Source: Capitulum mitella (lineage: Eukaryota; Arthropoda; Thecostraca; Pollicipedomorpha; Pollicipedidae). Taken from it: a DNA stretch of 64,000 nucleotides. Positions 1-58,308 of this stretch are shown here, piece by piece. Numbering within the stretch: position 1 is the first letter of the stretch; each line of letters starts with the position of its first letter. The notes beneath the pieces are model-generated. The model did no database searches and was not told the origin of the DNA. It worked only from the letters and a program-made list of their open reading frames with translations. The stretch is taken from the NCBI GenBank assembly GCA_030062745.1, contig CP099841.1, forward strand, positions 14,030,970 to 14,094,969, given 5' to 3'. The position numbers and the translations under genes were made by a program.

Positions 1-1020
1 GTTTAGCGCCCTCTAACTTTTTTGCAAAACAAGATATCTCAATAATACTTTCAGGGATTAGTGATTGTGACAGATGCAACAAATCCCCTATCTCAAATTT
101 TTCGGAATTTTCCGGGTCATTGACCTAAGGTCAAGTCCATTTTTATGACATGTCGTTCTTTCGGAAATTGATGGAATATTTCATAACATTTTTAGTGTGG
201 AGTGAAGCAGACTTCTAGTTACCGTCATTGGGCAAAGTATCAATGACTTCCAGCCATTAACCTGAGGTCAGGTCACAAATAACTGTAGTGAGCCAAAATG
301 TACCACCGTCAAAATCGACGATGAATTACTCAGAATGGGTAGAAAATGGCAGAACTAGCTTGCACAGACGTACGTCATACCAGGAACCTCAAAAAGTTTT
401 GAAAAATCACATATTTTGGAAATAAACAGGCTCTCGCGAATAAAGCTCCGCCAGCTGTGTAGATTGGTAACTAATGAATTTTTCCAAAATTTAAGCATGA
501 AAAACCATCACAAGAACCCCACTAAGATCAATAAAATTTACATAGATAGGCTTTTTTCGCGAAAATAAAGGAACGCTAAAATTAGTTCCCGGCAATTTGC
601 TACTGCATACGGCTGCGGCGCACGTCGACAGCTGGCACGACAATTGCCATGTCTTTAACTCAACGTTTCGGCGTATATATTGAACAAATCTGGGGAAATT
701 AGACGTGTATCGGCATCCGCGGACCTTTACTTGTGCGCTGGTGCCTTTACCTATGCGTTATTAGTCACAGCCCTTGAGATTCAAACCATTTCTGGGTTTC
801 ATGCAGTGGGCTATGAGAAAACATATATAGGGCGTAAATTGCTTACATATTATCTAAAACTAAAAATTAGACCAGTTTCGAGCTCTACTCGTCAGAAGCT
901 TTCCAACGGTATGTTCTATTTTCATCGTGCGACCAACCGTTCGTGAGTTAGAGGGAGGCGGCCAACTTCCCCCCCCAGTCGCGCATGTTCGAAACCGACC
1001 GACGGTCGTGCGCGGGTTAA
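1..1020. mobile_element. TTAA element, family 1, copy 1 (left end outside window)
   Basis: This stretch aligns along its whole length with 3152-4162 in the same orientation. Position 1 corresponds to about 3152, so roughly 200 bp of the left end lie outside the window. The right end is the same as in the second copy: GACGGTCGTGCGCGGGTTAA, closing with TTAA at 1017-1020. Substitutions and small indels are scattered throughout, so both copies are old. No transposase is visible. Both copies can be read as an ORF of about 90-120 codons near the right end, but the frames do not correspond over the first third, so this is not a conserved gene. It is inferred to be a non-autonomous DNA transposon of the piggyBac-like (TTAA-targeting) kind. 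Confidence 0.75.
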
Positions 1021-2639
1021 AAATATTCTTACGATACATCCGTGATCATACTTCGACATGAGGTGAAATTTCATGTTTCAGAGATAACGCTGTGTCGATA
1101 TGAATGAAGTCTGAAAACTTGCACTTGCATATAATGACTGCTTATGCCTGAGGAAGTCGAGGAAAACAGGTTTGACCCCCGCACTGACGGAATTCCGCGC
1201 CAACGTAAAACTGACGGTGGTAGGTGTCTAACCCCTGCTATTTTCTGACTGGAACGGGCCAGAGAGACCAGCGAAACGGCACGCGATAGCCCCGGAGCTT
1301 CTGAAGAGGATTTACCAAGGTCAGCTTTATGTGTAAGGTCAAGCTCAAGGCCATATCAAGTCATCTCACATTTTTTTCCAAATTTGCACTTAGCAGCCCC
1401 AAAGGTCGCTTCTGTTGCTTCATACTCGGGACATTTGTATTAACTATGTGCCCAAGATGATGCAATCAACCAATATATAAATATATATGGTGTCTGACAC
1501 AGGCCAATTTAGGTCACCAGATCCGTTTTTATCTATTAGAGGGCTTCCTGGTACGCAGAACTTGTGTCAATGATTTTGAACTGCCTTAGTCTGACATACT
1601 CGGACTGTAAGCTGCCCAGGTCAGCCTAGGCCACCGACCCAGGTGAAATTTACGTTCAAAATTTCATATACAGCTGAAAGAGCTGGAAAGATGTGAAAAG
1701 TTCATCAAAAACGGAAATTATCACAAAAGAGATTACTACCAATGACTTGAGCTGAACGTCAACCTACGTCAGTGAACTACGGCGACCTCGGGGTTGAAAA
1801 ATGCAATTTGTAAGCAGGGCAGCAATAATGACATAACAAGATGACAAAGCCGAAAGAAACGATACTGGAACGACATTTATCAACATTCCAGCGCTAGAGG
1901 TCAGCTTAGGTCAGTGAGCTTCTGTGACGCCTGGACTAAAAATGCCATTTGCAGGTGAGGCAGCTGGACGGGTTAGACAACTCGATGAAACTTAAAAAAA
2001 AACGCTACTCATCCGATTATTACCACAATTCCATACCTTAAACTCAGCCTGGGTCATTGAAATACGTCAACTCCCTAATGAGAGTTTTATGTCAGAGGGT
2101 GACAACCTTGATATACAAGTTAGGAAAACCAGGAATACTTTTAAGGGGGAGGAGGAAATTCCCGCTCGAAAATTATCGTTCCCATTGCAAATTTTCTCGA
2201 AAGGGCAAGAGGGGGAAGTGGGGAATTTCCTACCTTCAGATATTTTTCTGGAACTTTATTGACGCCTGTCTGCCAGCCCCGTCGCCCGTTAAGCCTCCCG
2301 TCGCCGGCCGGGGGTCACGTTACAGCGGCTGCGGGACGGCGGGTTGGTTCAGGAACATGAACCGAACCGGAATTCACGTTCGCGTTCATGTGGTCGTAAA
2401 TTTTTGGTGATGAATGCCAATTCCTACAACGACGCGAAGCCGCTCGTTGACGCAGACGCTGGACTTTCTGCTGTTCGGACGCATTAATAGTCCAAGCGTA
2501 AAGACAGTCGATACTATAAAATATGCGCTACATTGGGTTGACCTACGCCACATGTAGATGAGGTGATTGATAATTTTGTAGCCTAAGATACAAAGATATG
2601 CTTTTAGACAGCTTAACACATTTATTTTTCAGCATAGTC
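1021..2639. other. Non-coding, AGGTCA-rich stretch
   Basis: No gene is seen. The stretch is rich in AGGTCA-like hexamers (1319, 1620, 1901 and nearby) and carries the tandem repeat listed separately. A GC-rich segment at 2278-2345 contains CCCGTTAAGCC (TTAA at 2287-2290) and resembles the GC-rich ends of the TTAA elements. It may mark the edge of another degraded copy, but no partner end was found. Confidence 0.4.
1618..2046. repeat. Degenerate tandem repeat, three units of about 135-148 bp
   Basis: Three successive units begin near 1618, 1755 and 1899. Each opens with a GGTCA/CGTCA pair and then passes through similar blocks: TGNAATTTNNGTTCAAAAT-like or AAAAATGCNATTTG, then a CAGCTG/GGCAG segment, then AAACG. 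Divergence between units is high. The layout (units of about 150 bp headed by AGGTCA motifs) resembles the array inside the TTAA element at 36397-36860. Confidence 0.5.
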
Positions 2640-2954
2640 TAATTTTAAATTTACACCCTGTCCAGCCGTGATGAAGTTTACGGATCCCTTCTCTGAAGAA
2701 ATTGCCATTTTAGGACCTCCAAGAAATGAGCTACAGCATCGATGACATTATTATCAGGGCGAAAAATGGCGACCGCTGAGCTCCCATTTCATCTTGGGAA
2801 ACATGCAGTAATCTGAGGGCGCTAGATCAGGTGAATAGAGTGGGTGTTCGACAAGCTGAAATCCACATTCATGAAAAGCAGCAACGGCTACCATAGGTTT
2901 GTCAGCAGGAGCATTGTCTTGATGAAAGAGTTCAGCTTCCTACACCGATTTTTC
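2640..2954 (-). pseudogene. mariner transposase, C-terminal half (broken)
   Basis: On the minus strand, from 2940 downward, the translation carries the mariner catalytic-domain signatures LFHQDNAPADK, HPLYSPDLAPSDY and FPKMKWEL, followed by a recognisable C-terminal segment (AVAHFLEVLKWQFLQRR). HQDN and SPDLAPSD correspond to the second and third acidic residues of the DD34D triad of Tc1/mariner transposases. In-frame stops after SGRHFSP and RRDP show that it is dead. It is the continuation of the half at 4163-4880, separated by the TTAA element inserted at 2955-4162. Confidence 0.85.
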
Positions 2955-4162
2955 TTAACCCGCCCCCGACTGGGGGGAGGGCAGTTGACCTGAGGTTTTT
3001 CTGGGATTACGAGAGAACGAACAAACACAGAGCCACGAAACTTCGTGCACCTTTTGCTTCATCATTTTTACACCTTGCGTAAAATTTTTGACCTCAGGTC
3101 AAGTCAGGTGTATGACCTATGTGAGATCAAACGGATGTATGTCCAAACAAAGTTTAGCGCCCTGCAACTTTTTCGGAAAACAAGATATCACAATAATACT
3201 TTTAGGGATTAGTGATCTCGATAGATGTCACAAATCTCCAATCTCGGATTTTCCGGGATTTTCTGGGTCATTGACCTAAGCTCAAGCTCATTTTTAAAAC
3301 ATGTCGCCGTTTTTCGGAAATTGACGGAATTTTTCACAGCATTTTTAGTGTAGAGTGAAGCAGACGTCTAGTTACCGTCAATGGGCAAAGTATTAATGGC
3401 TTCCAGCCATTGACTTGAGGTCAGGTCACGAATAACTGTTGTGAGCCAAAATGTACCACCGTCAAAATCAGCGATGATTTACTCAGAATGGGTAGGAAAG
3501 GGCAGAACTGGCTTGCACAGACGTCATACCATGAACCTCAAAAAGTTTTGAAAATTGCATATTTTGCAAACAAACAAGCTCTCGCGAATAAAGTTCCGCC
3601 AGTTGTGTAGACTGGTAACTAATGAATTTTTCCAAAATTTAAGCATGAGAAACCATCACTAAAACCACCATGATCAATAAAAGTTACATGGATAGGCTTA
3701 TGTCGCGGAAATAAAGGAACGCTAAAATAAGTCCCAGTTAAGTTCTTACTGCGCATGGCTGCGGCGCCCGCCGACAACCGGTGTGAAAATTACCGTGTCT
3801 TTGACTCAACGTTTCGGCGTACGCATTGAACAAACCCGAGAAACTAGACGTGTATCGGCATCTGCGGACCTTCACTTGTGCGTTGGTGCCCTCTGCCTAT
3901 GCGTTATTAGTCACAGCCCTTGAGATTCATGTTGTTTCTCGGTCTTATGCAGTCGGCTATGAAAAAACATTTATAGGGCGTAAATTGCTTACACATTATC
4001 TAAAACTAAAAATGAGACCAGTTCTACTCGTCACAAGCTTTCCAACGGTGTGCTTATTTTTTATCGTGCGGCCAACCGTTCGTGGGTCAGAGGGGGCGGT
4101 CAACCGCCCCTCCCCCCAGGTCGGGCGTGATCGTCGCCGACCGACGGTCGTGCGCGGGTTAA
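2955..4162. mobile_element. TTAA element, family 1, copy 2, nested in mariner
   Basis: Both ends are TTAA (2955-2958 and 4159-4162). The termini are inverted and degenerate: TTAACCCGCCCCCGACTGGG on the left and, read inward from the right, TTAACCCGCGCACGACCGTC. The element interrupts a mariner transposase between the RQLRENI segment and the HQDN segment. Removing the element with one TTAA leaves an uninterrupted mariner frame across the junction, so this is a clean insertion with TTAA duplication, as known for piggyBac and Kolobok transposons. It is 1.2 kb long with no transposase, so it is non-autonomous. The right two thirds match 1-1020. The left 200 bp resemble the left end of the element at 25250. 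Confidence 0.88.
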
Positions 4163-5480: not shown

Positions 5481-6655
5481 AATGAAACATTTCGCTGCCG
5501 AGACGCGGTGAAATGCTTGTTGTTGCGTGTCCGTCGCTCGCTCCTGTGCGGTGGCGTTGTGTCGGCGCGTTCCGATTGTTGGAAGAAGACCAGACGGTAT
5601 GGCTTGTTGCCACGAAAACGTGCTGAAACCAGCCTCGTAGTCACACTCGACATGGCTGACGTGTTTAACGACCATTTCGCGAGTGCCGGCCAGCGCATCG
5701 CAACCAAAGCGATTGGCTCTCCTGCTGATACCCAGGGCAGACATGATCGTCTTTGTCCACGCCCTTACCGAGTGTGCGCCTCTGCCGTCCTCCTCCGTCC
5801 TACCACCCTGCCTGAGCTCTCTCTCTGGCCATCAAGAGTATGAGCTTCTCTAGGGCAGTTGGTGTCAATGGTGTCTCTGTCATCGCATTCAAACCATCGT
5901 TTTCCGCCATTGGTCCACATCTTTTCCATATTATAAATCGTTCCATCCTGTCAAATGCTTTCCCTGATGACTGAAAAATTGTTCCTGTGGTGCCTGTTCA
6001 CAAAGGACGCGACCGATCCAACATAAACAACTTTCGGCCGAGTCCCTTTTGCCTGTTTTATCAAAGATCACGAAAAAAAGTTGTTTTCACACAGATCTTA
6101 TGTACCGCAAAACCATCTCCTTTCCACATCTCAGTACGCTTCCCGCCTATGCCACTCAGAAGAGGATGCCTTGCTCGACGTTGTTACCTGCGTGTCGCGA
6201 GAGGTCGACGCTGGTCGTGTTGCCTGCCTCACAGCCATCGATCTTAGCAAAACGTTCGACAGCGTTAACCACAAGATCCTCTTGACCAAGCTGGGGTGGC
6301 AAGGCAACTCCTCAGACTGATTTAGCAGTTACCTGAGTAGACGACGACAGGTTGTCACTGGTGGATCGCTCACTATTCCCCTCACACACCAAGGCTCTTT
6401 GATTGGTCAGGCGCTCTTCCTTGTCACTGTGAACGACTTCCCTTGCTTTCTAACACACGGTCAACTTTTGTCTTAGGCTGATGACACTCAACTATCGCAT
6501 TCTTCTTTTCCCGACAGCAACGGCCTTAAAGACCTCAATCCACGTATCCAGCATCCTATGCACGAGCTCCAGATCTGGTTCAAATCTAACGGTCTGAAGA
6601 TGATTCCTGGTACAACCAGTTTATTTGGCACTCCGCCCTCCCTAAAAGGACCATA
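5481..6655 (+). pseudogene. Non-LTR retrotransposon pol (endonuclease-RT linker and RT), truncated
   Basis: The plus strand encodes a decayed reverse transcriptase of the Jockey/CR1/L2-like kind. In order are seen: a linker region (ADVFNDHFASAGQRIA, then LRPTTLPELS), a finger region (SRAVGVNG, then VPVHKGRDRSNINNFRP), the palm motif AIDLSKTFDSVNHK with its catalytic Asp near 6240, SSYLSRRRQVVTGG, and the active-site box ADDT at 6477-6488. The residue before ADDT, normally Tyr, is a TAG stop. LQIWFKSNGLKM follows. Frameshifts and several further stops are present. It ends abruptly near 6655, where a thumb domain would be expected. The upstream endonuclease domain is not visible. Its normal role is target-primed reverse transcription of its own RNA. 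Confidence 0.85.
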
Positions 6656-10646: not shown

Positions 10647-10976
10647 GTCGACGCAGGCTCTAGAATCCGAATACTCACCGATGTCACGTGTCCTCTCGCT
10701 GGACACAGTCGATTCTATCACTGAGCTGTCACTGCCGCAAAAATGGGACCAATTTAGGACCCGACGATGGACGCAGCCAAGCTTTGACGTATAAGCCAGT
10801 AACAAAGCTATGGCAGAGCTCCTGACAATGAGCAACAGGCTGATAAGATAGATAAGATAAGATAAGATAAGATGGTCCCATTTTTGCGGCAGCGACAGCT
10901 CAGTGGTAGAATCGACTGTGTCCAGCGACAAGACACATGACATCGGTGAGTATTCGGATTTTGGAGCCTGCGTCGA

Positions 10977-10977
<1 letters not shown>
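10647..10977. repeat. Long inverted repeat (two 105-bp arms)
   Basis: The arm at 10647-10751 (GTCGACGCAGGCTC...ATGGGACCA) is the reverse complement of 10873-10977 (TGGTCCCAT...GCCTGCGTCGAC) with only scattered mismatches. The arms are separated by a 121-bp spacer that ends in a GATAA array. Transcribed RNA would fold into a long hairpin. The right arm contains CAGCTCAGTGGTAGAATCG, reminiscent of the tRNA box A, so the arms may be head-to-head copies of a tRNA-derived SINE fragment. A convincing box B was not found. Confidence 0.8.
10841..10872. repeat. (GATAA)n microsatellite
   Basis: About six GATAA/GATA units lie inside the loop of the inverted repeat, directly against its right arm. Confidence 0.9.
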
Positions 10978-11019: not shown

Positions 11020-11023
<4 letters not shown>

Positions 11024-14794: not shown

Positions 14795-16448
14795 TTAACC
14801 GTATTCATGGAGGGCTAGACGGTGTAGCCGATTTCCGGTAGGGGGGCGGATTCGGCCCCCTGAAATCTCGAGAAATACATATCCGATTTCATCGCAAGGA
14901 ACGGCAATCGATTTCCCCTGACGTAAACTACATTTTCTGTAAAAGAAGTTTCCAAAATCTTGAAAGGGGTGGATTCGGGGAAAAGTCAAAATGGGGCATA
15001 TTCTTGGACTTTTTATGCATCAACCGATTTGGATGAAATTAACATCAATGAAGAGTTTATGGATGGGGCTTTTACCATTGCTCCATAAATGTAAAATTTT
15101 GAGAAAATTCATGGGTGTTAACAGGGTTTAGAAGACGGAAACCTTGTTTTTTTTCTTCAAAAACTGGATTAACAAAAAAGTTGTACACACGTTTTTTGAC
15201 TTTTATACGTCGTGCCTTGCTGAAGAAGTACAAATTGTATTACATTGTTTGCGCAATATTAGCATGGGCTGCGCCAGGGACATGAAAAAGGGGAACTGTT
15301 ACGGTCAAATGTTCATCAGGTCAGCTTGCGACTTTTCACCTTAAATGACCTCCAACGACATATGAGTGATATGTAATGATCTTCAGTGCTTTTCATAGTA
15401 GTTGAAAACGTTTCCAATCATTTGAATTTACTATTTTCTTAAATTCCATTTCACTGCTGTCGTGATATATGTGTGCTTCGAAAGCACTTATATGTGGCAA
15501 GAACTTACTTCCCAAGGTTGACCTGAATCCATTTCATCCAGGCTGACCTGATCTGATCGTTCAAAATATTTGTGCTTGTTTTCAATGCAAATGCACTTTG
15601 TACATCCACAACTGAAACGAACTACCCCTGTGACGCCTTTCTGCATTTTTTTTTTGTTATAGAAACTGCTCTCTTATTGCATACCCCAGCTCTCCTAAAT
15701 GCAGGAAAAATAAATATCGTTGTCATTGCTAAAACAGCTTCCCACCAAATGCAAGGTTTTGATATTGCGGTCGTGCCTACCGCCCGGTATCTGTGTGGTT
15801 TACGTGAAACTGCTTTGGGGCATGGGGATCATAATATAGAAGAAATATTACATGGGCTAATGCTAAGGATTTTATGCTGCACTGTGTCTGACTAATCGTA
15901 ATGCGGCAAGCGATGCGGTAGGCACCAGAAGGACCCGACGTATAGGCGCCCCTTGACTTAGGTTGACCTTGTGTGACCTTAATATGATAGTTGCACACTT
16001 TATATGCGTGCCAGACGCATTTACGGAGTATTCTAGCCAAAACAAGTTATTGCACATTTAGAAAAACGCAACTACTGCCCTCACAAAACGACAGTTTTTG
16101 CTTCCTTTTCGCCTTTAATGAAGTGGTTAAGTTTAAACCCAAATGACGTTTTTCTGCACCATAGGGGTAAATCAGTCCTTCGTTATACTTATAACTCCTT
16201 TGGGATACGCGTACAAGCCATGGTTATCAGTGTTCTGCCAAAAATATCAGCAGAGTAATTTGGCCTAAGATCACTTCTGGTGACAGTGTCGACCTCACTC
16301 GAAAAAATATAGGTGGTTTCTTTTAGTTTAACCAAGGTAGTCCAGCGATGCTTTTGCTTTTCCGATGGGACTTGTAGTTCTCGAAATCTTGGAGGAATTC
16401 TCATGAACCCTCGACACGGCGAAGGTGGATACGGGGGCCGAGGTTTAA
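14795..16448. mobile_element. Chimeric TTAA element: family 2 left half joined to another family
   Basis: It starts with TTAACCGTATTCATGGAGGG (TTAA 14795-14798). Up to about 15475 it follows the left half of the element at 19970 and the reverse complement of the right half of 27937-29141: the AGGGCTAGACGG block, the CTCGAGAA block, and the CATGAAAAAGGG block. From about 15480 the sequence leaves family 2. It instead matches 25820-26284 (GACGTATAGGCG block) and then 27495-27790 (TTTATATGCGTGCCAGAC block). It may end at TTAA 16445-16448. It is either a recombinant element or one element inserted into another. No transposase is seen. Confidence 0.6.
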
Positions 16449-17649
16449 AGGTAGAGCACTCCCTCTAGCATTTTCAAATGCACTTCATTGTCAGGGCCCA
16501 GTCCGCATGTTGCCCACTAACCGTAAATGAGACATATTCTGCCTGTCGAGACCAGCTGCAGATGTTGCATTGGTGGCAATCGCGTCGCGTTGCCGGGGTT
16601 TTCGCCCGAGAGTCGTTTGTATACTATTTTTTTTTCTTTATCTTTCCGTCACTTCGACGGGGCATGTATCGCATACGTCAACACGTTCTGGACACTACGC
16701 AATATCTCGTTTTCATTTGCACGGTAATGAAATATTTCACGTCTCAGCTGAAGGGCGGGTTCAACTGGCTACTTGCTGACTACTTGCTCCGTTGTGTATT
16801 TTCGTTTGTCGTCTGTTGCTATACACAACTGACCTGCCGTAAGCCGTCAGTTTAGGCCAGTGAAACAGTAAAATGCATAAAAGGATAGAAAAAGAAGAAA
16901 AGAGTGAACCCGTCGCAATTTGCTAGCAGCGACATGTGCTTGCGCTGCTAAAGCTAAGCTCATATTCTGAGCAGGCAACCATCGACCATCTAAACTGCTC
17001 CACTACAGAGTGTAGACATGGAATATACCTAATTAGGAAGGATAAGGGATGGCCATAACGATGGTCTAACAGACCAATCTTTCGATCATGAACTAAGCTG
17101 CTTATCAGAAAACGAGGGCATCACCATACACATGAAATATTGCTGTCAGTATAATGAATCATCCCGTCTGTTTCGAGGCGTCCGGAGATGCATCCCGATA
17201 GATCCCGGGAAGCCAACGTAGCCTAGGCACGTTGAGGTGGGGCATGTTCAAGTCACCTGTACAGGCCAGCGTGAATTGACCAAAGGTGACCAAAGGCGAC
17301 TGATGATGCTTTTGCTATCATTGTAGCGTCCCCCACCCCCGCTTTGTCCCGCCCTGCGGCAGCTCACTGATGTGATGCAGCGCGTGAGCCGGCTTGGCGT
17401 GAGGGTGGTGACGGATGGCGTTGATCCGGCGATGGTGGAAGCCGGTCGGGTCCCGGCGCGCTCCTCTCCGGCTGTGCTCCACCGGCAGCACGCGGCGACG
17501 CTTCTTGGGCAGCTTGGAGCGTGCCTGCGGCAGACGGACGGCGCTTCACAGACAGACGACAGATGTGACGCACAGACGGGCGTCGCCGCAGATCGAGGCG
17601 TGACTATGAGTGACAACACTCCGTGACAGCACGGAGGGGTCAGAGAGGC
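16449..17649. other. Mostly featureless; GC-rich patch at 17330-17600
   Basis: No gene is recognised. 17330-17600 is CpG-rich, and its open frames on both strands have no recognisable domain. It leads directly into the minisatellite, whose unit is already recognisable around 17650. Confidence 0.3.
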
Positions 17650-41042: not shown

Positions 41043-41331
41043 TCATAGGAATAGAAGGGGAGATCGGCTGCTGTCATTGACCAGCGCGGTATGAGCGCCG
41101 CCATCTTTGTGGTTGGCTTATGAGATTGTTTATCATTCCGGCCTATGGGGAAAACGCCTTTTTGCGAGGTGAGAATTCAGCTTTATTAGAAGGAAAATGT
41201 ACAGATGCATGCTACCGGATTTGTTCAACATTATTCTGTAAGGAATCGACTCGGCGCATTTGGATCTAACCCAGTCCGGAAATAAAATCTGGTGGCAAGT
41301 AGCGAGTACGATCATCACCAGCACTGGCACC
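41043..41331 (-). repeat. Dispersed repeat with YY1-like motif, copy 1
   Basis: It is the reverse complement of 45306-45616 with clear similarity throughout. Both contain CACTTGCCACCAG(A/T)TTTTATTTCC, GGGTT(A/G)GATCCAAATG and AAGATGGCGG. GCCGCCATCTT at 41097-41107 matches the vertebrate and fly YY1/Pho-type core (AAGATGGCGGC). Homology stops at TTAA, where family 6 begins. Confidence 0.75.
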
Positions 41332-42917
41332 TTTAGCTATCAACACACAATGCAGCATTGCGTGGTGAATAATGATATGGAGACTGGTGTGCCTTTTTGC
41401 TGTTTTCTTAGCTCATGATGTGTATGCAGTTTGCTTAAATAAAAAAATGTGGCTGATGCTGAAAAGACTTGTATTATTGCTTGGCCACGGTATGGTGAAG
41501 GCTTTAGGTAAAGGAACATCATGTATATACGGTATATAGCAAGGCTGTGCAAACAGTATGCAATATGTATAAAGAAAACGGGGTACCATCATGGTAAGCA
41601 CAAAAATATCTCATGTTAGCAAGAAAAGATACGACGTAAAACGTGATACCATATTAATTTCGTAAAGGAAAGCTTGACATTTCAAAGTTCCACGACGTTA
41701 TAAAACTTATAGCGTACTGGCTGGCTGGGTATAACTTTCCACTTGTTTCTGTGCGTACAGAATCCGAAATGCTATTTAAAATACAGAAACTGCAATGATT
41801 TTAAGTACTAATGAGTTTTCATATGGATAGGAGGACAGCAAATTTCAAGAAGAAAACATTTTCAACAAACAAAGATTTCAGCACACGATTACTTTTTTGC
41901 ATTTTGAAGCTCGGGATACTCCAACAATGAATATCGCTATGCAACAGGGAAGTGGAGACGGGACAGGGTCCGGGACGCCTCATAGCTTTATGAAATTTGA
42001 CGTTGACCCTATGACTGTTGAGTGGGAAGAAATGGTTGGAAAAGCTTTGCGACCTCCAAAAATGGAGGAGTTCCTATGTCCCTGCTGTGCAGCAACGTTT
42101 GACATAAGCAAATTTTACATGTGTAAATGTATATAAAAACAAATCCAGGTTTCAGCCATCGATAATGGAGCACAGCTGCGCCAGCGTTTCTCAGCAAGTT
42201 CTAAATGATTGGAAGCCCCTTTTTGTGGATTCTGTTGCATTCATTCAGTGTGTATACCCATACAATGAGTATAGCCAATAACCACAATCACAGGAAGCTT
42301 ACTACATAAATCTAACAAAAGCAAGCCGCATACCTGAATGGGGAGCAGCGCTATGATATCATGAAACATGAATAAAGAAACCAAGCAAGAACGAACAAAA
42401 TGTTGACCTTAAAAACAATTCTTCTGGATGTTGCCATTCATGGTTTCAGGTACAAAAGAATAGTGTCAATAGGAAAGGACAGTCATGGTGTTTCTATGCA
42501 CGTTTGTGATGCACTTATTGAAATATATCAGGACCAAATAAATATAGATAATAGTAAAATAAAGTTATGTTAATATGACAAATAGTTAATGAAAAGAGTA
42601 TTAAAAAGAGGAGCAAACAAATAAAAACAGCATGATGCATGAAATTAAGAGCAAGTCTGGTCATTGACACTTCTGCGAGTGCGTTTCACACTTCTCAATG
42701 TTTCAGAATAAATAATCTGTACTGAGGTAACTGATATGAATGTTGCAGTCCAGACCAATCATCCTGGTACGCACAAGACATCTTGAAATGAATCTGGCAG
42801 TTGATACCTGAGGGAATGTCTGACAGTTCAGCCTAGAATAAATGGAGAACCCAGTCTAGGCTTCATAAGGAATGCTGCATTTGTGACATGTAGTAATGTG
42901 TGTAAGTCATACAAGAT
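41332..42917. other. AT-rich, no feature beyond a short ORF
   Basis: No repeat or element end is recognised. The ORF at 41927 is listed separately. 42560-42720 is AT-rich and low in complexity. Confidence 0.3.
41927..42136 (+). CDS. Short unrecognised ORF with a Cys-rich end
   Basis: A 69-codon ORF begins MNIAMQQGSGDGTGSGTPHS, has an acidic middle (DVDPMTVEWEEMVGKAL) and ends LCPCCAATFDISKFYMCKCI. The five cysteines near the end could suggest a small zinc-binding knuckle, but no known pattern fits. An upstream in-frame ATG lies at 41897. There is no splice, promoter or conservation evidence. Chance is likely. Confidence 0.15.
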   Translation: MNIAMQQGSGDGTGSGTPHSFMKFDVDPMTVEWEEMVGKALRPPKMEEFLCPCCAATFDISKFYMCKCI

Positions 42918-44228
42918 TTAACCCGGCACCGCCTAGAGGGTGTCAAATAGGGTACCCCCTCGGTTTTTCGTGAATAACTTTTGGACCGTTTGAGCCAGCC
43001 CAACGAAGCTTTTCGTGCCTGCTCAATAATCGATTTCACATATTTTGACGTCAAAACCATTTCCATGCTAGATCAAGTCATGGAGATATGACGTCATGAG
43101 CTAACCCTTGCATGCATGCTTTCGCCTCTTCGGGCGATGGCGCGAACATGCTACGTTTTCTTTATATAATATTCACGATCATAATGCATGGATTATTTGT
43201 ATTTACATGGGATAAGGTTCACAAAAGACTATGCAACCGCGACATGTCAACATTAGAGGTCATGCTAAGCCACATGCATAATGACAATTGGACTGATTTG
43301 CATTGTGTGTCATAAAAGTGCTTACCGCTGGCTTTTCCCATCATTCAAGCCAGAGGAGCAAATCTATGGAAGACTCTTGGCAAGGTTCACCAAATGCAAC
43401 GTGAGATCATGTCAGGTCAGGTTACTCGCAGCCGTTTTGGTCCACGTTACCAGGGATAACAAAACGCAGTGAAATGCAACATTGTCAGTGGAGGATCGTT
43501 CAGAAGCAGCAGAGAACAATTATTGTTCCGACTGAGAAAAAAGAAAAAAATGGCTATCTGTGCTGACGTGACTTGACCTTGACCCGATAAAGAGCGCGCA
43601 GCAGATTTAATTATCGTGAATGTCATTGCAATTCTTCACTTGACACGGTTACGAACCCCACCCGGCGATGATTGCTCCTTGCCAGGAAAAGTAATGCAAC
43701 CTTATCTGGCCTGACGTAGACTGACCATGACAGGACAAAAAGCAGGTAATGCCAAACTGATCATCAGGTTTCATTTCCGTCCTTTTTGTCACGTAGATGA
43801 AAACGGCTGCCAGGAAGTATCGATCTTTGGCATATAAAGTAAAACCAATATTTCACCTGACCTGGGTTTACCTTGACCCGATATTTTTTTAACATTCTGG
43901 CATGCCTCCGATGTAGATGGTCGTGGCTTTTCGTTGGGCGCCGGAAGGCCCGGAGACCAGCATTGTCGATGATATGATGTACGAACCGGTTTTAGTTTTT
44001 TCGACGTCGTGTTACGCGTTTTACATGACGTGCGGCGTCATCATTCATGTGACCAAGGATAACATAGTATTTTCTGAATTGCAGGACTCAGGGCTGTTGA
44101 CTGGTGGTAGGACGGTTCAGATTCAATGGCTAGATCCTGATATAACTGGGGGTGTCCTTTTTGACACCTACAGACGGTCGGGGGTACAAAAACACGTCAT
44201 ATGCATTATTTAAACCGTGCCGGATTAA
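42918..44228. mobile_element. TTAA element, family 5
   Basis: TTAA occurs at 42918-42921 and 44225-44228. The left end is TTAACCCGGCACCGCCTAGA. The right end read inward is TTAATCCGGCACGGTTTAAA. Just inside both ends lie matching pieces around AGGGTGTCAAATAGGG (left) and AGGTGTCAAAAAGGAC (right, inverted), so the terminal repeats are discontinuous. The interior has repeated CTTGACCTTGACCCGATA motifs (43572, 43868) and no transposase. It is 1311 bp. Confidence 0.78.
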
Positions 44229-45305
44229 ATAGTGCGCATGTTGTAGCAACCGTGAAAATAATGGTGTTTGTTGTAGTCTTTTACTTATGAAATGATTATC
44301 GCATTGCTGATGTTGGCTGCAACACCTCCTAACAGAAGCCTGAATAGTAAATACAAATAACATTCAGGCGTTATTACTGACTACGTCAATCGCAAATGAC
44401 AGATAACTGTGTCATTTTTATTTTCTTCTGCGAAATTTGTGCTTCTGAATTAAGTCGAAATAAATCCATCTCATTTTATACCACCTACTTTTCCTAAGTT
44501 TTACCATTATTTTGCAATAAATTGCAATCTTTTCTCCACCTTAACATAGTTCAGTCAGTCCAAGTCCTAAATATAAAACGAAATATACAACTGCGATCAT
44601 TCAGTCTTGATGTGTACAACATAACTAATGTTGCTACAGCTTTTATACACATATTCTGTGAATTAGGCATCTGTATCTCACATAAATTTGACCAAGAAAT
44701 ACTTCCAATATTTATAACAGACTTGCGATAGTTGCTTGGAGCCCGTGCGGACAAATAACATGCAGAATCGTGGATTGAACCAATCAGTACCACTTGCGGA
44801 TCCAAGGGCCCGTCATAACCATTGTCCACCACTTGGCGGAAAACCTGGAACCAACATGGCTTTCCGCTCCCCGTTTTGGACAGCAAATACAGACCGTTTC
44901 TGAGACAAACATTTATTCATGTGCTTAAATTTTTGAAAATGGCGAAACAAAACAGCGAAAATCCGAGGTAAAATAAATATTTCCTTAGGCAGTTCGCTGT
45001 ACACAATACAGTGTGTTACACCTGAGAAGCCTAGTTCTTCATATGACAGATAAATTGTGCGACGTAGTGTTATTCATACTCTGCTTACGAATAATGTATA
45101 TTTTTGAATTCATTCATAAGAGGACCCGTTGCCATGTTCTTGAAGCCAATTCGGCAGGTCATAATAAATACCTTTTTCAAATCCATTCTTTATTTCAATG
45201 AAACATAGACACATTATGCGCCAGCGAAACAGCTGAAAGGCAGACCTTTCTCCGCAACACCATTTTTCACCATGTAATCCTGCGATCAGAGTGTCAATAC
45301 TTTCA
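44229..45305. other. No feature recognised
   Basis: Ordinary AT-rich sequence. No gene or array is seen. Confidence 0.3.
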
Positions 45306-45616
45306 GGTGCCAGTGGCGGAAATTATCGCGCTTGCTCACTTGCCACCAGTTTTTATTTCCGAATTGGGTTGGATCCAAATGAGCCAGCGGACTCCTTGCA
45401 AAAAAATACATATTGAATGAACCCAGTATCACGTACCTGTACGTTACCTTCCTAACATTAACTGAATTACCACCTGGCAAAAAGCACGTTTTTTACATAA
45501 GCCGTAACGATGATCAGCCACACACGTCAACCATAAAGATGGCGGTGCTCATACCACGCTGGTCATTTCCAGCCAATGGCAGCAGCCGAACTCCCCTTCT
45601 ATTTCTATGGGGTTAA
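45306..45616 (+). repeat. Dispersed repeat with YY1-like motif, copy 2
   Basis: Partner of the repeat at 41043-41331 in opposite orientation. AAGATGGCGG lies at 45537-45546. The end is CTATTTCTATGGGGTTAA, with TTAA at 45613-45616. This is where homology to the other copy ceases. Confidence 0.75.
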
Positions 45617-47900: not shown

Positions 47901-49133
47901 CACTTTTTCCTGCAAAAGATGTCGTTCTTTATTAATTTCCTAGCATTTGAAAACATTCAGATGTTGAGTAGAATGGCTTTTAGCACGCAGGAACCACTTA
48001 TGCATAGGCGTTAGATTACTCACTGTGATATCCCCTGCATCTGCCCTTGGCAGTCTCCAGTTGTTTTATAAATCATACCGGCCCTGTGCTGAAATCAAAG
48101 TATTACCATGCCTTAGTTTGCAGCGTCAATAACTGAGCAAGCAATCTCACGTCTAATTAACCCCAAAATGGCCTGCTTGCCTCCAAGAAGCGCATTCTGA
48201 ACCCTGGCCTTGTCATTTTCAGGAGTTAAGATTTTGGTGCAATGTGTAAGAAAACACTTAAAAAATCCCTAAATTTCAGTGCGATATCGCATAGGGTTTG
48301 GCTTTGGCAGCAGAAAACCCCTGGGCATAGTGTTCAATTCGACACTTGCTGTAAAATAAGGTTGAACGTTGACGACTAAGGTAACTGCACTCTGTATTGG
48401 TCGAAATTTTCGAGTCAGGCCGTGTAGACGAACGGCAACGTCTGATTCATCTATCGACGACGAGCTGTGAAAAACACAATTGGAAATGACATGTATAACG
48501 GGCTGACATCAGGATGATGGAAATGTGGGCGTCGTCGCCATAAATCGAGCGCCAACTTTTCTCGTCAATTCGAGCAACGTTTTCTCCCATGCGAATGGCC
48601 TACAGCTGGGAGGGAAAGGAAACCATCAAGCTGACTAATGGTCTCTGTGCTTCTTTCTTCGCTGAAGCCTTGAAGGGGCGGATCTTTTCGGCGCTACATT
48701 AGGCGTTCATCACTCTGATGGTATTACAGCAGCGTCGATACCACTATTGTTGTTGGTGCCATAAGGCTCAGAAGCTCTCAAACAGAACCCAGATAAATTT
48801 CCAGGGTGAAGTTAAGAGATTGCACGCAGTCTGCTTAATCAAGATATCACTTAAGGCAATGTCGATGCCAAACCTCTCCAAACAGGTATATTTTAATATG
48901 ACATCCGCAGTATTTGCGTAGAATTTTCAGCGCATGAAGCTCGTAGCAAAATGGAGATTAGTAAGTGCCAAAAATACTACAAACATAACTTCCACCATGG
49001 AAATCGCTATCAGATTCACCCAGGAAAAAATTGTTGGTTTTTGTTCGTATCATTAGCAAAAACGAACCACTCTTTGTGTGCCTTGTAGTCGTCATCCTCA
49101 GCAAGGTGTTCTTCGCTCGCTTATTAGGACACT
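47901..49133. other. No feature recognised
   Basis: No gene, array or element end is seen. Confidence 0.3.
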
Positions 49134-50345
49134 TTAGCCGTCGTCCGGTGGGACCATTTTTACAAACTCGCCCGGCGGGGATTCTGAAACGCACCCCCCG
49201 CCACAAACTTTTGAACAAAGAGAGACAGAGCAATGAGGCAAACATTAGTACGTTGCTCGTCACATAAGCAACTCAGTGACATCCGAGTTTGTGGTTTTAT
49301 GTCAACATGTGACCTCCCAGGTCACGCCAATTACCTCAAAGCTGCCATGTCAGAATATGTCGAAGTTTTCCTAGCAATATAGTTTCCGAAGTCATAAAAA
49401 TACATCAATTCCGTATGCACCAATGTGTTGGTCATTGTCTTTGTTATCAGGATATATATCAGGTCGCGAAAATATCATCGTAACTTGAATTTCCAATGGG
49501 AGGCACGATAGTCCCACCGCACTTTTGCCTGGTTACAGGTCAAACAAACGACGACACGCGTGCCAGAATTGGTTTTCCTCGGGCTAGGAAGGGCTTGCCT
49601 ATTTAGGAGCAACGGCCACCTTAGTTCCCAAGATCACCGCCAGGGGCGCCCGTTTCGTTTCACGGAAATCGTTCCTTGCCAAAACCACTCGAGCTAGAGC
49701 CGCCAGATTTGGTGTGCAGGTAGGCGGGCAACGGTCTATCCCAGCATATAGCTGTGATGGCCGGTATATTTGCTCAAAATCACCGCTAGGGGTGCAATCG
49801 AATTTCGGATTTTAGAATTTTCGCATTTCTCTGACCAAGCGTGGCCTTGACCTGAAAATTGGCTTTGCGTTACGTCAAACGATGTTCGTCCAAATAATGC
49901 CGGCATGGTGGGTCGTAAAAAAGCATTCTTGCAAGTGTATGTATCATTTATCTGATATACAAAACTACAATCGCGTTTGATGCCAACGTCTGATATTCAC
50001 GTTTGACTTAGTTTGATCTCTGATGACCTGACCCTTCCCATACACTAAGATCAGGTCACTGACAGCAACATTGATAAAAAAGATATGAAACACAACATTG
50101 TAATGCCTTATTTCCAATAAATAAAATGTATTGTTCGATATGGTTAAAAACACAACTGACATGGCCTTGACAAAAGGGTCCCAGGTCGAGACACATTGCA
50201 TGAAAAATTCTGAAAATTCTATCCAAGGTATATAAATGTCAACGATTCAGCTACAACAAAAATCAAAAAATTCATCTGCTGTCATTAAAAAGATATTAAA
50301 GAAAAGTCGTAGTGGGGTTCCAAAACGACTCCGGGCGAGGGTTAA
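49134..50345. mobile_element. TTAA element, family 3, copy 1
   Basis: The left end TTAGCCGTCGTCCGGTGGGA (TTAA mutated to TTAG, 49134-49137) is followed by ACTCGCCCGGCGGGGATTCT. The right end is CCGGGCGAGGGTTAA (TTAA 50342-50345). Over the full length it matches the reverse complement of 52860-54100. Landmarks: AACAAAGAGAGACAGAGCAA at 49214, GCCACCTTAGTTCCCAAGAT at 49616, and the AACACAACTGACATGGCC block at 50149. It is 1212 bp with no transposase. Confidence 0.82.
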
Positions 50346-51470
50346 CACCATGGCGTGTATACGAGAGAAGTACTCAGAACAAGGTTCAAACGAATGTTTG
50401 ACAAGGCTGTATAAGAAGGGGAAATGAGTTAGTATTAGTTACGAACAAGTTTAACACTTGGATCACAACCCACTGAGAAAGGCATATCCAACGTTTGACT
50501 GGCTTCAGGGAAGCATAAATATCCTGGTCATTTCACACTGCTCAAATTTAGGTGGAGCCATGAAAAACTGATACATTTCCAACGGTTTTCGATTGTACTA
50601 TTGTTGACTGACTTTGCTTTCCTGGTATAAAGACACCTTGCCATGACGGGGAAACGCATTTTAATTTGCCGCCACAGTATCGCTGACTGACTAAAATATA
50701 CCTGGACCTAAATGTACTAAGTTTAAAAAACAGCAGTAAGTCTTGTAATTCATTGCTGCTGAGTGGGCAACGGCTCAAGGACAGTCGTCAGCCAGACAGC
50801 GAGCATGAAAAAGCAGTGGCCACAACCAGCTTCATAGCAGGGCAGACTAGAAACCACGACCCGGACATGGTCACCAGTAAGATTTTGACCGAGCGCTTAT
50901 TTCGAGGGAAAATAATCGTAGTAGTGGTTACATCGCGCTTCAAATGCAATACTGATAAGTACTACTTACCATTTCAGCCGAAAAAACCCGAAACACACAT
51001 TATTTCCCCCGAAACAGATTGCGTCGTCACGGGTATGCCAACCGCCAGATGCTCGCTTAGGGATTTTTGACGTTTCTGCGTTAAATAGTTTGTTTACGTG
51101 AGATCTCGACGCTGATTGGTTGTGGGTCGGACTCAAGGACCAATCAAGAGTAATAAAAAAGGTTCGGGAAATAACTAATGTGATATAAATTATCTTTAAA
51201 ATAAAAGAAGTTAGCCGTTGTAATAATAATTGTAATTATTATAATAATAATTATTATTATTATAAAACAATAATATTAATAACAACCAACAATAATAATA
51301 AAAAAGTAAAAATGCTACAAAGATGGAAAAGTGAAGTTGCGATTTCAAAAATACAAAAAAAAAAACAGTGAAATCAAATATCTGAAAAAGAAATCACGCA
51401 ACAAAACCGGAAAATATTAGAAAGTGAAATAAAACAATAAATAAAAATTTACCCTGACCTAACATAGTAA
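50346..51470. other. Mostly featureless; AT-rich from 51180
   Basis: 50346-51180 shows nothing recognisable. 51190-51450 is AT-rich with (AAT)n-like runs (TAATAATAATTATTATTATT at 51241-51262, partly palindromic), leading into the telomere-like array. Confidence 0.35.
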
Positions 51471-51530
51471 CCTAACCTAACCTAACCTAACCTAACCTAA
51501 CCTAACCCAACCTAACCTAACCTAACCTTA
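51471..51530. repeat. Interstitial telomere-like array (CCTAA/TTAGG)n
   Basis: About eleven CCTAA units, nearly perfect, decay on the right into CCTTAGCTAACCTAGCCCAG. TTAGG is the usual arthropod telomere repeat. Vertebrates and most molluscs use TTAGGG. An interstitial block could be a healed break, a fusion relic or a satellite. A mini-run GGTTAGGTTAGGTTAGG lies at 56588-56604. Confidence 0.9.
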
Positions 51531-51728
51531 GCTAACCTAGCCCAGCGCAATCCAACCTAGCAACCTAATGCAATCTAACGAGTATTAAACGTCATAATGT
51601 AATAATACTGATATCAGATATCCCAGCAATTATCTAATACAATAAAATAACGGCGTAATAATTCAGCAATTCCTTCAAGTTTAGTTTGTGGCAACAGAAT
51701 AGAATTTTCGTATATATGACGTCATTAA

Positions 51729-52859: not shown

Positions 52860-54100
52860 TTAACCCTCGCCGGGCGGGAGCAAGATCGCTGTACAGTTTT
52901 ACTTGAATAACTTTCTAATTTATGGGAGATCGGGATCGGGCGCCGATTTTTCCTATAGCTGAGCTTTCGAAAATTATACACTTTCACTAAAATCCTCGGA
53001 TTTTTTATGTTTTAGGTCGTCACGTGTGGTTTTTCGCGAAGACCATGTCAGTTACGTTGTTAACCAATTCAAGCTATACATTTCATTTGTTGGAAATTGG
53101 GTATTTCGATGTTGTACAGCATGTTCCTTGTATAAATCTTGTTGTTAATGACCTGATATCAGTGTACGGAAAGATTCAGGCTATCAGATGTCAAACTAGG
53201 TCAAACGTAAATATCAAGCATTGTCGTCAAACGCTATTGTAGTGTTGTGTACGGGATAAAATATATTTACATTCACAAAAAATGCCTTATTACAATCCAT
53301 CACGTCAACATTATTTTGACGAACATCGTCTAACATCATGTAAAAGCAATTCATAGGTCGAGGTCAAGATGTGCCAGAGAAATTCGAAAATTCAAAATTC
53401 GATTGCTCCTCCAACAGTGACCTTAAAAAAGTATCGCGGCCACCACAATGATATGCTAGGATAGACCGTGTACCCACCTACGTGAACTCCAAAGCTGATG
53501 GCTCTAGCTTGAGTTGTTTTCGACAAGAAGTCACTTCCGTAAAACGGCACGGGCGCCCCTGGCGGTGACCTTGGGAACTAAGGTGGCCGCGACCCCAAAT
53601 GGGCAACCCCCTCCGAGCCCGAGGAGAGCCGGTGTGCCAAGTTGGTCACTCGTATCGTTGCTCGTTTGACCTGTGACCCAACAAAGGTGTAGTGGGACTA
53701 TCATGCCTCTCACTATAAGATTTAGCTATGATGACATTTTCGTGACCTGCGACGTCAGCAACTGACCTGGACCCAAATACATTTTCCGACAGATAACACG
53801 ACGATCAACACGCTGGTTCTTATGGAATAAGTTTATCTTGGATCAATTTATTTTCAAAATTTTGGAAATTATATTTCTAAGGAAACTTCGACATATTGTG
53901 ACATAGCCACTTTGAGGCCATTACCGTGACCAAAACTGAGACAAAAGAAATTGGATACCGTTGAATTACGCACGTGACGAGCAACGCATTGCTTCTTACC
54001 GCGTTGCTCTACCTCTCTTTGTTCAAAAGATTGTGAGGGGTCGTTTTAGAATCTCCCGCCGGGCGAGGGTGTAAAAAAGGCCCCGTCGGGCAAGGGTTAG
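52860..54100. mobile_element. TTAA element, family 3, copy 2
   Basis: The left end is TTAACCCTCGCCGGGCGGGA (TTAA 52860-52863). The right end read inward is CTAACCCTTGCCCGACGGGG, with TTAA mutated to TTAG at 54097-54100. It is the inverted counterpart of 49134-50345. CGCCCCTGGCGGTGACCTTG at 53551 and TTGTTCAAAAGATTGTGAGG at 54018 are shared. A second internal GGCGAGGGTG sits 30 bp inside the right end, as in copy 1. No transposase is seen. Confidence 0.82.
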
Positions 54101-54214
54101 CTTCTCAGACATTGTGTGTCATTTGATCAGGCGCTTTCCGCTTCTCCATTTGCAAGATTGGTGTACAAAAAAAAACGCCGTGGACCTTGCTTGTCAAGGA
54201 TCTCACATCACCTT

Positions 54215-55161: not shown

Positions 55162-55457
55162 CATTTGTTTTGCTACCAATCAGTTTATTACGAATGCTGG
55201 ACATCGTCAGTTCTCTCAGTATTGGCTACGACGGATATTATACCCTGCATCACCCGAAGAAGGAAAGAAATTTAGACTGTGTGTGATTAGCTGTAGTGCA
55301 GAAAGGGCATTTGTTTTGCTACCAATCAGTTTATTACGAATGCTGGGCATCGTCAGTTCTCTCGGTGTTAGCTATGATGGATATTATACCCTGCATGACC
55401 CGAAGAACGAAAGAAGTTTAGACTGTGTGTGATTAGCCGTAGTGCAGAAAGGGCATA
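55162..55457. repeat. Tandem duplication, two units of about 147 bp
   Basis: Units start at 55162 and 55308 with CATTTGTTTTGCTACCAATC and end GTGCAGAAAGGGCAT. The copies are very similar, with a dozen or so differences, so the duplication is fairly recent. The unit length of about 150 bp recalls the arrays at 1618 and 36397, but the sequence is unrelated by eye. Confidence 0.92.
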
Positions 55458-55914: not shown

Positions 55915-55997
55915 TCTGGTTGGTTACCGGACAAAATGTCGTATGGCGGAATGTCGATGGAAATAATTTCGAAAGCAAAATATGAAGTATGATAATG

Positions 55998-56051
<54 letters not shown>

Positions 56052-57010
56052 AGCATAAATAATGATTTCAAAACATGAAAGAAAAATAAAATGTCGTACA
56101 GGATAAATACCGGCCAATGTGAATATCGAACCATGGAGCATATAGAACCTCACAATATCGAGTAATGATAAACATCAAATTGGGATATTTATTGGAATAG
56201 AAAAACATCCTGGGACAAAATATCAAATGGGAAAATAACGAAAGAAAAATGTTGAACAGCAAAAATGATGACCATGATCATCGGGGAAATGGCAAAATGT
56301 CAACTGGCAAAATATCATCAGAAGAGCGGAAGGTGTGGTGCAGGAAAGGACATAGAAGGCCAACTTCTTCGGTTTGTCCTAAGAGTAGTAGTCAGTTCGC
56401 CGTAGCTGAAGTGATCGGTTTGTCGTATGAGTAGTTATCGGTTTTCCTCAGTCAGAAAATTCTGTTCTCCGTTGGCGTAGTAATTGTTTTGTCCCACGCG
56501 TTTTGATTGCTTTGCCGTAGACATAGCAATCGGTTTGCCATAGGCGTTGCAATCGGTTTGCCGAAGAGTAGTAATCGGCTTATCTTAATGGTTAGGTTAG
56601 GTTAGGATTGTTTACCTTTATGATAAGCAGTATTGCCATATGTCCTTGACTGCGGTATAAAAACTTGACCCTGTCTGCAACAATATACGTTGCCGTTATT
56701 ATTCTGTCCGTTTTTAATCCGTTTACTGCATGCTGTCAGTCGATATTTTACTCATATCGTAAATAGCACGCTGATATTTATCTATTTGATATTTCCGCTT
56801 CATATTTTACGTTTCATATTTTTGGCATTCGATATTCCGTCCATCGAAATTTTCCCTTCCAATATTTATCCCTGTTCGATATTTTATGTAAAACATTTTC
56901 CCGTTCGATGTTTGTACCATATTTACCACGTTCGACAGTTTGCGTTCGATATCTTGCTTTTGATATATTTTCATTCAATATTCCGCCATACATTATTTTT
57001 TGGTTCTGTA
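55915..57010. mobile_element. Foldback-like element with satellite-built inverted arms
   Basis: The left arm (about 55925-56310) and right arm (about 56740-57005) are inverted copies of a degenerate satellite of about 20-23 bp with core RAAAATRTCGAACGG. The outer ends share GTATGGCGGAAT: 55941-55952, and inverted at 56982-56993. The left arm is interrupted by a (TA)n run. The spacer (56330-56590) holds another tandem pattern of 22-23 bp (GCAATCGGTTTGCCATAGGC). Long inverted repeats made of short tandem units are the hallmark of Drosophila FB-type foldback elements. No transposase is seen. Confidence 0.55.
56001..56049. repeat. (TA)n microsatellite
   Basis: About 24 AT units inside the left arm of the foldback-like element. 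Confidence 0.95.
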
Positions 57011-57149
57011 GTCCGTCTAGTAGGGGACTGTCTCCTGAAAAGCAATCGTAATTTCAGAGAACGAGCAAATTAGCAGCCGATGTGTGGCATCTAAGTCCAA
57101 CATAATTGTTTGGCATGTTTCCATCCAGGTGAGATGGTGCAAATGCTAT

Positions 57150-58308
57150 TCTCAGTTCTTCGTCAGATTTTTTTCCGAACATGGGACTCTCGCGAAAATC
57201 ATCTCAGCCAACAAACCGGGCCATATATAACATTTTTTAAACATATTTACTGACGTACCAAGTTTCAAATCGATGTCAGATCAGGTCACGGACAGATGAC
57301 CACAAATATGTTCGCGCATATCCCTTTTCTCCAGAGGCTACGCAATGAAACACAGCCAGTTTCTGTTTCAGTGCTTAATTCAACGCTAAAATGGCTAAAA
57401 AGGCTAAAAACAATTTCGGGATGCCCGAACACACATTCTTATGACTTTAATCTCTTTTAGGTTATCTGAGGTGACTGGCCTAAGATGAACGTTTTTGAGC
57501 TCAGCACGCCTTTTTCTGGGAAAAACCTGGTGTCTAGCGTATTTTTATGCTTTTTTTTAAATTCAGCAACCAAAATTACCTAGGTGTGGTACACTTTATG
57601 GACAGTAGGTATCATAGAGAAATGGATCAGATGGTTCTGCCTGCGGCCTAGCACTCCGTGCCGTGTCCGCGTATTGTTCCGAATAAGCTGAAGGATACAA
57701 ATGAATTTTGTACTCGCCAGTACTTAATACTTCATTTGGCGGCAAAATTGTGTCGCATGACAAGAATTGCCTCTGAGAGGCATATCTTCGCGATTCTGGC
57801 ATTTTTTGGTCACTGACCGAAATGTGACATTTAAGGTAATTTTGGGCGGCAAATTCGAATTCAGCGTCAAAATCTACCTCCGAAAGACCACAAAACAAGG
57901 TAAATGACACTTAATGAAGTTACAGTCATACGGCTTAAGTTAAGCTGAAGTTCAAATTTAAGCACAAGTACCGAGCCGAGCATCCCAGATTATGTACTTA
58001 CTATTGCAGTTTGATGTGCCCTACAAAAATGGGTCATACATCTTAGGATTGTGACCAACCGTCTCCGCGTTACAAGCAAATGTCTGGCGAGTCGCACCGA
58101 ATTTGACCCTCTTTGACCTCATTTCTCCAGGAAGGTCACGCTCTAGACACGTCAGACTGTTATACGAGAGATTTATGCAGGGATCCATCACGTCTGCAAA
58201 TTGGTGGCTCTATCCTCATGAGTTTTTGAGATGTTAGGGAGCGGTCAAATTGACACCCTCCCCCAAACGAGCGCGTTATGTTTGACCGGCCACCCATGCG
58301 AGTGTTAA
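57150..58308. mobile_element. Probable TTAA element, family 7 (left end unresolved)
   Basis: AGGTCA/GGTCA motifs and a GC-rich end (GACCGGCCACCCATGCGAGTGTTAA, with TTAA at 58305-58308) fit the pattern of the other TTAA elements. Read inward the end is TTAACACTCGCATGGG. No matching left end was found near 57100-57200, so the start is approximate. No gene is seen. Confidence 0.45.

Follow-up and report, generated by a model that had tools for sequence, protein, structure and literature searches.

We analyzed a window of 64,000 nucleotides from the barnacle Capitulum mitella (G000:C3:14030970–14094969; contig CP099841.1), which contains a swarm of TTAA-bounded elements of similar length. These elements probably represent parallel families of piggyBac miniature inverted-repeat transposable elements (MITEs) whose autonomous parents belong to a diverged clade and whose lengths correspond to the summed non-coding flanks of those parents. 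In the proposed pathway, piggyBac-like elements with long non-coding flanks (approximately 0.75 + 0.4 kb in the case of family F) would have lost the transposase-coding middle in parallel to give several large MITE families, and transposases supplied in trans would then have copied the derivatives at TTAA sites, up to thousands of times. The near-uniform length would arise because each derivative retains nearly all of both flanks. One autonomous clade as the source is supported for family F, suggested for families D and H, and assumed for families A, B, C, and G. We infer that A, B, C, and G arose in this way, as did, with weak support, D and H, and that the swarm was mobilized in trans. Retention of the flanks of diverged parents would explain, in a form open to testing, why several large MITE families of equal length seem to have unrelated sequences.

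Self-comparison and end scoring identified nine complete elements of 1205–1354 bp in seven families (A, B, C, D, F, G, and H; Table 1). Together with a tenth element, A2, a family A copy truncated by the window start, they occupy 12.3 kb (19.4% of the window), and inclusion of the related pieces X, X2, B3, and I gives 16.1 kb (25%). Four other pieces (J, K, M, and Y) served as blast queries and were left out of the family counts, that is, the coverage and the nine-family and spacing counts of AGGTCA described below; they were masked in the sample-density test. These results confirm the original prediction, made from the letters of the window, of at least nine complete elements from at least seven families that fill about a quarter of it.

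We searched the genome (477,042,490 bases, 16 contigs) for families A, B, C, D, and F and scored the 40 best candidates per family, which biases the length lists toward full copies. Among the listed matches, 31 of 42 were full-length for A (1203–1253 bp), 38 of 41 were full-length for B (1205–1232 bp), and 39 of 45 were nearly full for F (1258–1332 bp). The predicted near-uniform length therefore holds in the window and among the best genome copies of these three families. The first look gave 9,059 candidates for A, 10,828 for B, 3,929 for F, 443 for C, and 606 for D, all of which are unconfirmed copies. The identities of the listed matches, the window's own copy excepted, were 68–76% for C and 70–76% for D; from these low identities C and D look older, and they also look rarer, than A, B, and F. 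For comparison, 20 stretches of 10 kb were picked from contigs 1 and 2 independently of these elements, giving a sample of 200 kb. Families A, B, F, H, X, and I were present in 15 of the 20 stretches and covered 18.8 kb (9.4%), and C, D, and G had no match in the sample. The window is approximately 2–3 times richer in these families than the sample. The full-length sample copies measured 1217, 1224, and 1222 bp for A (n = 3) and 1210, 1214, and 1229 bp for B (n = 3).

A parent-like element for family F was present at C15:17039243–17043135 (locus L059 and its neighbours). It is 3,893 bp long with TTAA at both ends. Its left flank of 759 bp is collinear with F positions 1–19 and 36–774 (76% over 36–774), and its right flank of 387 bp corresponds to F positions 945–1317 (68%). 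The middle contains one frame of approximately 630 codons with stops at at least four places, and three consecutive pieces of this frame match positions 32–171, 180–243, and 288–349 of DDE_Tnp_1_7 (PF13843); the third piece falls slightly below the curated cut-off, and the E value for the whole domain is 5.4e-41. One piece of the protein had 44 genome matches. The hexamer AGGTCA, discussed below, occurs five times in the left flank, not at all in the open reading frame, and five times in the right flank. Inside L059 we found no inner pair of TTAA sites with matching tips, so a simple nested insertion is unlikely. Because F sequence lies on both sides of the transposase, the best reading of F is that it arose by internal deletion. 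Deletion from a parent, which the original prediction had set aside, is thus supported for F. The size constraint that it had offered instead is not needed, since the length approximates the sum of long non-coding flanks, and the regular length probably has an ordinary cause, namely the flanks of diverged parents. The possibility that the families are pieces of one larger autonomous element holds in part: F fits it, but each family seems to need a diverged parent of its own.

The piggyBac transposase domain had 118 matches in the genome, some of which are pieces of a single gene, and we examined 25 transposase loci at least in part, eight of these as two flank pieces. At a C8 relative of the C15 transposase (40% identity), the 5′ side matches D2 positions 688–1134 and D up to position 1196 of 1241, in order; the D match reaches approximately 45–80 bp from the D end by blastn, and the tip, judged by eye, is without TTAA. 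At a C14 relative (47%), the 3′ side matches H positions 169–3, with the TTAA decayed by eye, and abuts a D end. The piggyBac-type source that the original prediction proposed to look for is supported by two-sided matches for F and suggested by one-sided matches for D and H; none of the 25 loci held an autonomous element whose ends match those of A, B, C, or G.

The same search revealed PB1 and PB2, which from their sequences appear to be two young-looking autonomous piggyBac families. PB1 (approximately 2.91 kb, TTAACCCATTAACGCCCAG tips) was found at L029 (C15:16133668–16136573), L030 (C13:711733–714645), L031 (one outer tip decayed), L036, and L038/L039. PB2 (2.58–2.72 kb, about 2.67 kb; TTAACCCTTTAGTGCCCA / TTAACCCATTAGTGCCCA tips) had both ends in ten loci, for example L032 (C14:7029806–7032475), and one end in three. 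Several copies of PB1 and PB2 contain stop-free frames of 557–613 amino acids. The tips of L061 are unlike those of PB1 and PB2, and tips were not found at L035, L040/L041, L056, and L060. A role of PB1 and PB2 as mobilizers of the swarm is unsupported; their tips differ past CCC, and AGGTCA occurs 0–2 times per element (six counted). Matches to the end box (see below) in L053 and L057 were rejected as a feature of these elements and are located in adjoining X and B pieces. At L037 (G000:C3:255300–257700), an A interior is fused to a piggyBac-type transposase piece with B nearby; this locus was not counted as a parent because the joint lacks both the right end of A and the end of the transposase. 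L056 was likewise rejected as a parent, since the two B ends that flank its transposase point the same way. PB2 elements lie inside or beside older copies at L032 (B on both sides), L058 (D on both sides), and L046 (D on one side), which indicates that swarm elements act as TTAA targets.

We scored the ends of 793 TTAA pairs located 900–1700 bp apart in the window. The top five inverted-end scores belonged to F, A, B, G, and H, and control pairs in direct orientation scored below these five. In the window and sample together, TTAA pairs with YY inward of each TTAA and scores ≥6.5 numbered seven in inverted and one in direct orientation. CCC is present at at least one tip in each of A, B, C, D, F, G, and H. 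The terminal inverted repeats (TIRs) match at 12 of 12 bp in two B copies from the sample and extend over 17 bp with mismatches in F, and those of A, G, and H are shorter. Element C splits a copy of repeat X, and the other X copy (15472–16331) holds a single TTAA at that point and represents the empty site; the sample copies of A and B have TTAA tips and flanks that are unrelated to each other. These results indicate a TTAA target duplication, and the predicted TTAA targets are borne out by the TTAA or decayed TTAA bounds and by the C empty site. In the consensus sequences of A and B, the two families subjected to this test, the longest open frame was 108 amino acids, in agreement with the predicted lack of a transposase.

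Several further observations concern the ends. The pattern TTAACYCN10GC was too unspecific for counting elements (3917 matches vs 3194 in reversed controls). A terminal GC hairpin shared by the families was plausible by eye and was dropped, as 14 ends fold no better than dinucleotide shuffles. In the sample, L016:792–1435 is a TTAA pair of 644 bp with TTAACCCTCGCC tips that resemble D and H; it is a possible shorter relative, so such pairs are not always 1.2–1.35 kb. Inverted related pieces occur at window 41044–41423 and 45209–45615, one of which ends CCCCTTCTATTTCTATGGGGTTAA and the other of which is abutted by H; they are possibly a further TTAA family. The H terminus at 41042 abuts sequence whose inverted relative extends to 45609, and the end of another repeat was therefore probably an H target too.

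To the prediction that the interiors are unrelated, the comparison of whole elements gave a divided answer. Most pairs score like shuffles, whereas A-X (132), C-X (72), A-C (70), and B-I (54) exceed the maximum of 38 in 60 shuffled control pairs and are related; scores of 38–46 are not claimed because the real pairs scored outnumber the control pairs. With the 170-bp ends, 7 of 128 cross-family pairs scored ≥36, and none did when one end was reversed or reverse-complemented. A core-box profile built from seven ends gave 25 matches at E<0.01 in 264 kb, which include the seven training ends and their family copies, and no match in reversed sequence. Matches at ends of other families were found at L025:3837 (E 1.1e-5) and L019:6646 (E 5e-7), with TTAAYY located 76 and 45 bp outward, respectively, and weaker matches in L015 (E 0.011) and at L014:3601 (E 0.088). 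When each end was left out of the profile in turn, five of the seven ends (A, C, G, H, and X) were recovered with E values of 1.7e-9 to 0.0033, and the best reversed-control matches had E values of 0.049 to 0.0041. These sequence comparisons support a diverged end box of approximately 120 bp for the five families A, C, G, H, and X, and the box is less sure for B and F.

The families also share the hexamer AGGTCA. In the window and sample, AGGTCA/TGACCT occurs 361 times vs 117 expected and is the most enriched hexamer once simple and GC-only repeats are set aside. In the window, 80 of 126 sites are inside the 16.1 kb of elements (5.0 per kb vs 0.97 outside), and in the sample the density is 4.74 per kb in masked homologs and 0.70 elsewhere. 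One representative of each of nine families gave 69 sites in total vs 4.9 in shuffles, and AGGTCA is the sole hexamer with at least three copies in each of the nine. The bases next to it are hardly conserved, and the commonest close arrangement is direct repeats 5 and 10 bp apart. The clusters are often approximately 155 bp apart: 17 of 31 gaps between clusters are 140–172 bp, and not one of 2000 random placements gave a peak at 145–170 bp as high as that observed. Among single periods, 76 bp, approximately half of 155, is the strongest (p 0.0065 across all periods, or 0.0075 when F is excluded). The 145–170 bp band was picked after the positions had been viewed, A, X, and C are kin, and the peak is absent from sample sites outside the families (4 of 51 pairs at 140–172 bp, vs 176 of 2477 for control hexamers); the spacing of approximately 155 bp may therefore be due to descent. 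The substitution rate within AGGTCA vs elsewhere in the family was 7.3% vs 9.6% in A and 7.8% vs 10.1% in B, and because this decay is barely slower than that of the surroundings, conservation after insertion is not claimed.

Two readings of the clusters bear on their role. They could be functionless remains of one old tandem array of approximately 155-bp units from which the elements descend, which we regard as rather doubtful. The share of cluster gaps at 140–172 bp and the tandem units of approximately 155 bp inside F (Table 1) agree with such an array, but it would require the hexamer to survive amid mostly changed sequence although its own flanks are hardly conserved; the lack of the peak outside the families fits descent equally. 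Alternatively, the clusters, which persist in every family tested while the surrounding sequence turned over, might act as a code in cis for a DNA-binding protein, namely the transposase of the clade through its own DNA-binding domain or a host nuclear receptor, a possibility that we offer tentatively and consider unlikely. Under the favoured derivation from piggyBac-like elements, movement may also depend on the end box and the AGGTCA clusters, for instance if the transposase or a host factor binds there. If a host nuclear receptor reads AGGTCA, the movement or expression of the swarm would be tied to hormone signalling, and, by extrapolation from 112 sample sites, a few hundred thousand receptor half-sites would be spread over the genome, often about one nucleosome apart. 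Binding of the clusters by the transposase or nuclear receptors would mean that sites inside non-coding transposons are under selection and that the host receives receptor sites in bulk.

In regards to the origin of the swarm itself, two other explanations were weighed against derivation from a piggyBac-like clade. Unrelated templates could have been captured between piggyBac-like ends, with a size limit of the transposition complex holding them at approximately 1.2–1.35 kb. The shuffle-like scores of most interior pairs and the tight lengths among the best A, B, and F copies agree with capture, but a box common to several families, AGGTCA in all nine families tested, the alignable interiors of A-X-C and B-I, and a transposase with F sequence on both sides argue against it; the size limit is at odds with the 644-bp pair with D/H-like tips and with the inserted piggyBac elements of 2.58–2.91 kb in the same genome. 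We therefore consider this explanation very unlikely. Kolobok and Sola3 are other TTAA-specific superfamilies, and one of them could have moved the swarm, with the F-flanked piggyBac locus being a fortuitous nest. The unmatched A, B, C, and G ends at the transposase loci are compatible with such a mover, which is nevertheless improbable: the CCC tips of the swarm are like those of piggyBac, the F locus is two-sided and collinear with TTAA tips and no inner tip pair, and the one-sided D and H matches are within the same transposase clade.

Several results weigh against derivation of the swarm from a piggyBac-like clade. The two-sided parent-like element concerns F only and is one old copy, and the D (C8) and H (C14) links are one-sided with a tip without intact TTAA. 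Such one-sided neighbours can be due to chance, since the families occupy 9.4% of the sample and 15 of its 20 stretches. Two of the first four flank probes (L064 and L067) gave no family match, nor did the remaining C8 3′ side. The autonomous PB1 and PB2 have other tips and little AGGTCA. In regards to the ends, the leave-one-out profile missed B and recovered F just at E 4.2, D, which was outside the training set, gave no core-box match, the TIRs of A, D, G, and H are imperfect and short, and the terminal hairpin z scores of the 14 ends (-1.5 to 2.0) are to be set beside those of six interior pieces (-0.6 to 1.6).

Parallel large piggyBac MITE lineages, shared inner regions, and transposase-bound subterminal arrays are already known; the unusual feature here is the shared interior word AGGTCA. 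The Daphnia Pokey MITEs mPok1 and mPok2 are approximately 750 bp long, have 90–110 copies and a preference for a 28S site, and form two lineages that parallel autonomous Pokey lineages, with end similarity over 160 and 350 bp (PMC3849761). They resemble the present elements as unusually large, parallel piggyBac derivatives of a crustacean with TTAA targets, whereas at least seven families and thousands of candidates are present here; the AGGTCA array and the many-family box described here are absent from the Pokey account as excerpted (PMC3849761). The CMITEs of Acropora corals share TTAA, CCC tips, differing TIRs with a shared inner region, and one family tied to a piggyBac-like element, but they are approximately 100 bp long with a well conserved core of 75 bp (PMC2872659), vs 1.2–1.35 kb and a strongly diverged box here. 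A possible counterpart of that inner region is the box seen in A, C, G, H, and X on leave-one-out, which is diverged and was not recovered for B and F. Repeated motifs and palindromes near the ends are bound by transposases of this superfamily: GCGGGA in piggyBat, with left-end sites within approximately 120 bp of the tip (PMC11707139), and TGCGT by the CRD (cysteine-rich domain) of piggyBac (PMC8086355). The repeated motifs recall the AGGTCA arrays; unlike the piggyBat left-end sites, AGGTCA spans the interior. Alu elements carry DR2 (direct repeat with 2-bp spacing) retinoic-acid response elements and are likewise a repeat family that spreads AGGTCA-type nuclear-receptor half-sites (PMC1785376); they are retrotransposons with a defined DR2, in contrast to the many DNA-element families here with nearest spacings of mostly 5 or 10 bp. 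The top-ranked open-licence PMC matches included no article on piggyBac MITEs of barnacles or on arrays of AGGTCA within piggyBac elements.

Table 1. Swarm elements, related pieces, and core boxes in the window (window positions).
Feature	Position	Strand	Evidence or remark
Family A copy A2	1–1020	+	Left end lost at window start; 85% identity to 3152–4162; ends GCGGGTTAA
Family A, complete, 1208 bp	2955–4162	+	TTAA at both ends, inverted end match
Family A core box, 40 bp inward of TTAA	2995–3110	+	nhmmer E 2.7e-18 with A in profile; 1.7e-9 with A left out
Family B partial copy, adjoins X-family piece	14795–15471	-	72.7% to B
X-family piece with empty site of element C	15472–16331	+	blastn to 25820–26265 and 27494–27637
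Family I, diverged, left end approximate (counts used 18190–19300)	18190–19265	.	Matches in L019, L015, L025; 5 AGGTCA sites
Family B copy B2, ~1221 bp, one TTAA decayed, near 500-N gap	19968–21191	-	77% to B over its length
X-family element, left part, split by element C	25155–26284	+	TTAACCC start
X core box	25309–25424		E 7.3e-17 in profile; 1.1e-8 with X left out
Family C, complete, 1215 bp, within X, TTAA duplicated	26285–27499	+	Empty-site comparison
Family B, complete, 1205 bp	27937–29141	+	Inverted-end scoring, TTAA ends
Family F, complete, 1332 bp	36048–37379	+	17-bp inverted end match including mismatches
Family F tandem units, three of ~155 bp	36359–36821		Inside F element
Family H, complete, 1354 bp	39689–41042	+	Inverted-end scoring, TTAA ends
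Family G, complete, 1311 bp	42918–44228	+	Inverted-end scoring, TTAA ends
Family G core box	42963–43080		E 1.5e-17 in profile; 6e-4 with G left out
Family D copy D2, ~1212 bp, left TTAA decayed	49132–50343	-	70% to D
Family D, complete, 1241 bp, right TTAA decayed to TTAG	52860–54100	+	Self-comparison, end inspection

An Rfam scan of the window gave zero matches at the gathering threshold. The window also contains other repeats: approximately five tandem, near-identical copies of a 35-bp unit (29914–30083), an array of an 18-bp unit (17623–18028), a tandem pair of a 146-bp unit with 93% identity (55162–55456), and inverted arms of 2 × 105 bp with 93% identity, approximately 120 bp apart and beside a TA repeat (10647–10977). 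The region at approximately 6230–6330 looks by eye like a broken piece of a non-LTR (long terminal repeat) reverse transcriptase. AACCT/AGGTT runs, which we take to resemble the arthropod telomere unit, are located at 51468–51535 and 56590–56606, internal to the chromosome.

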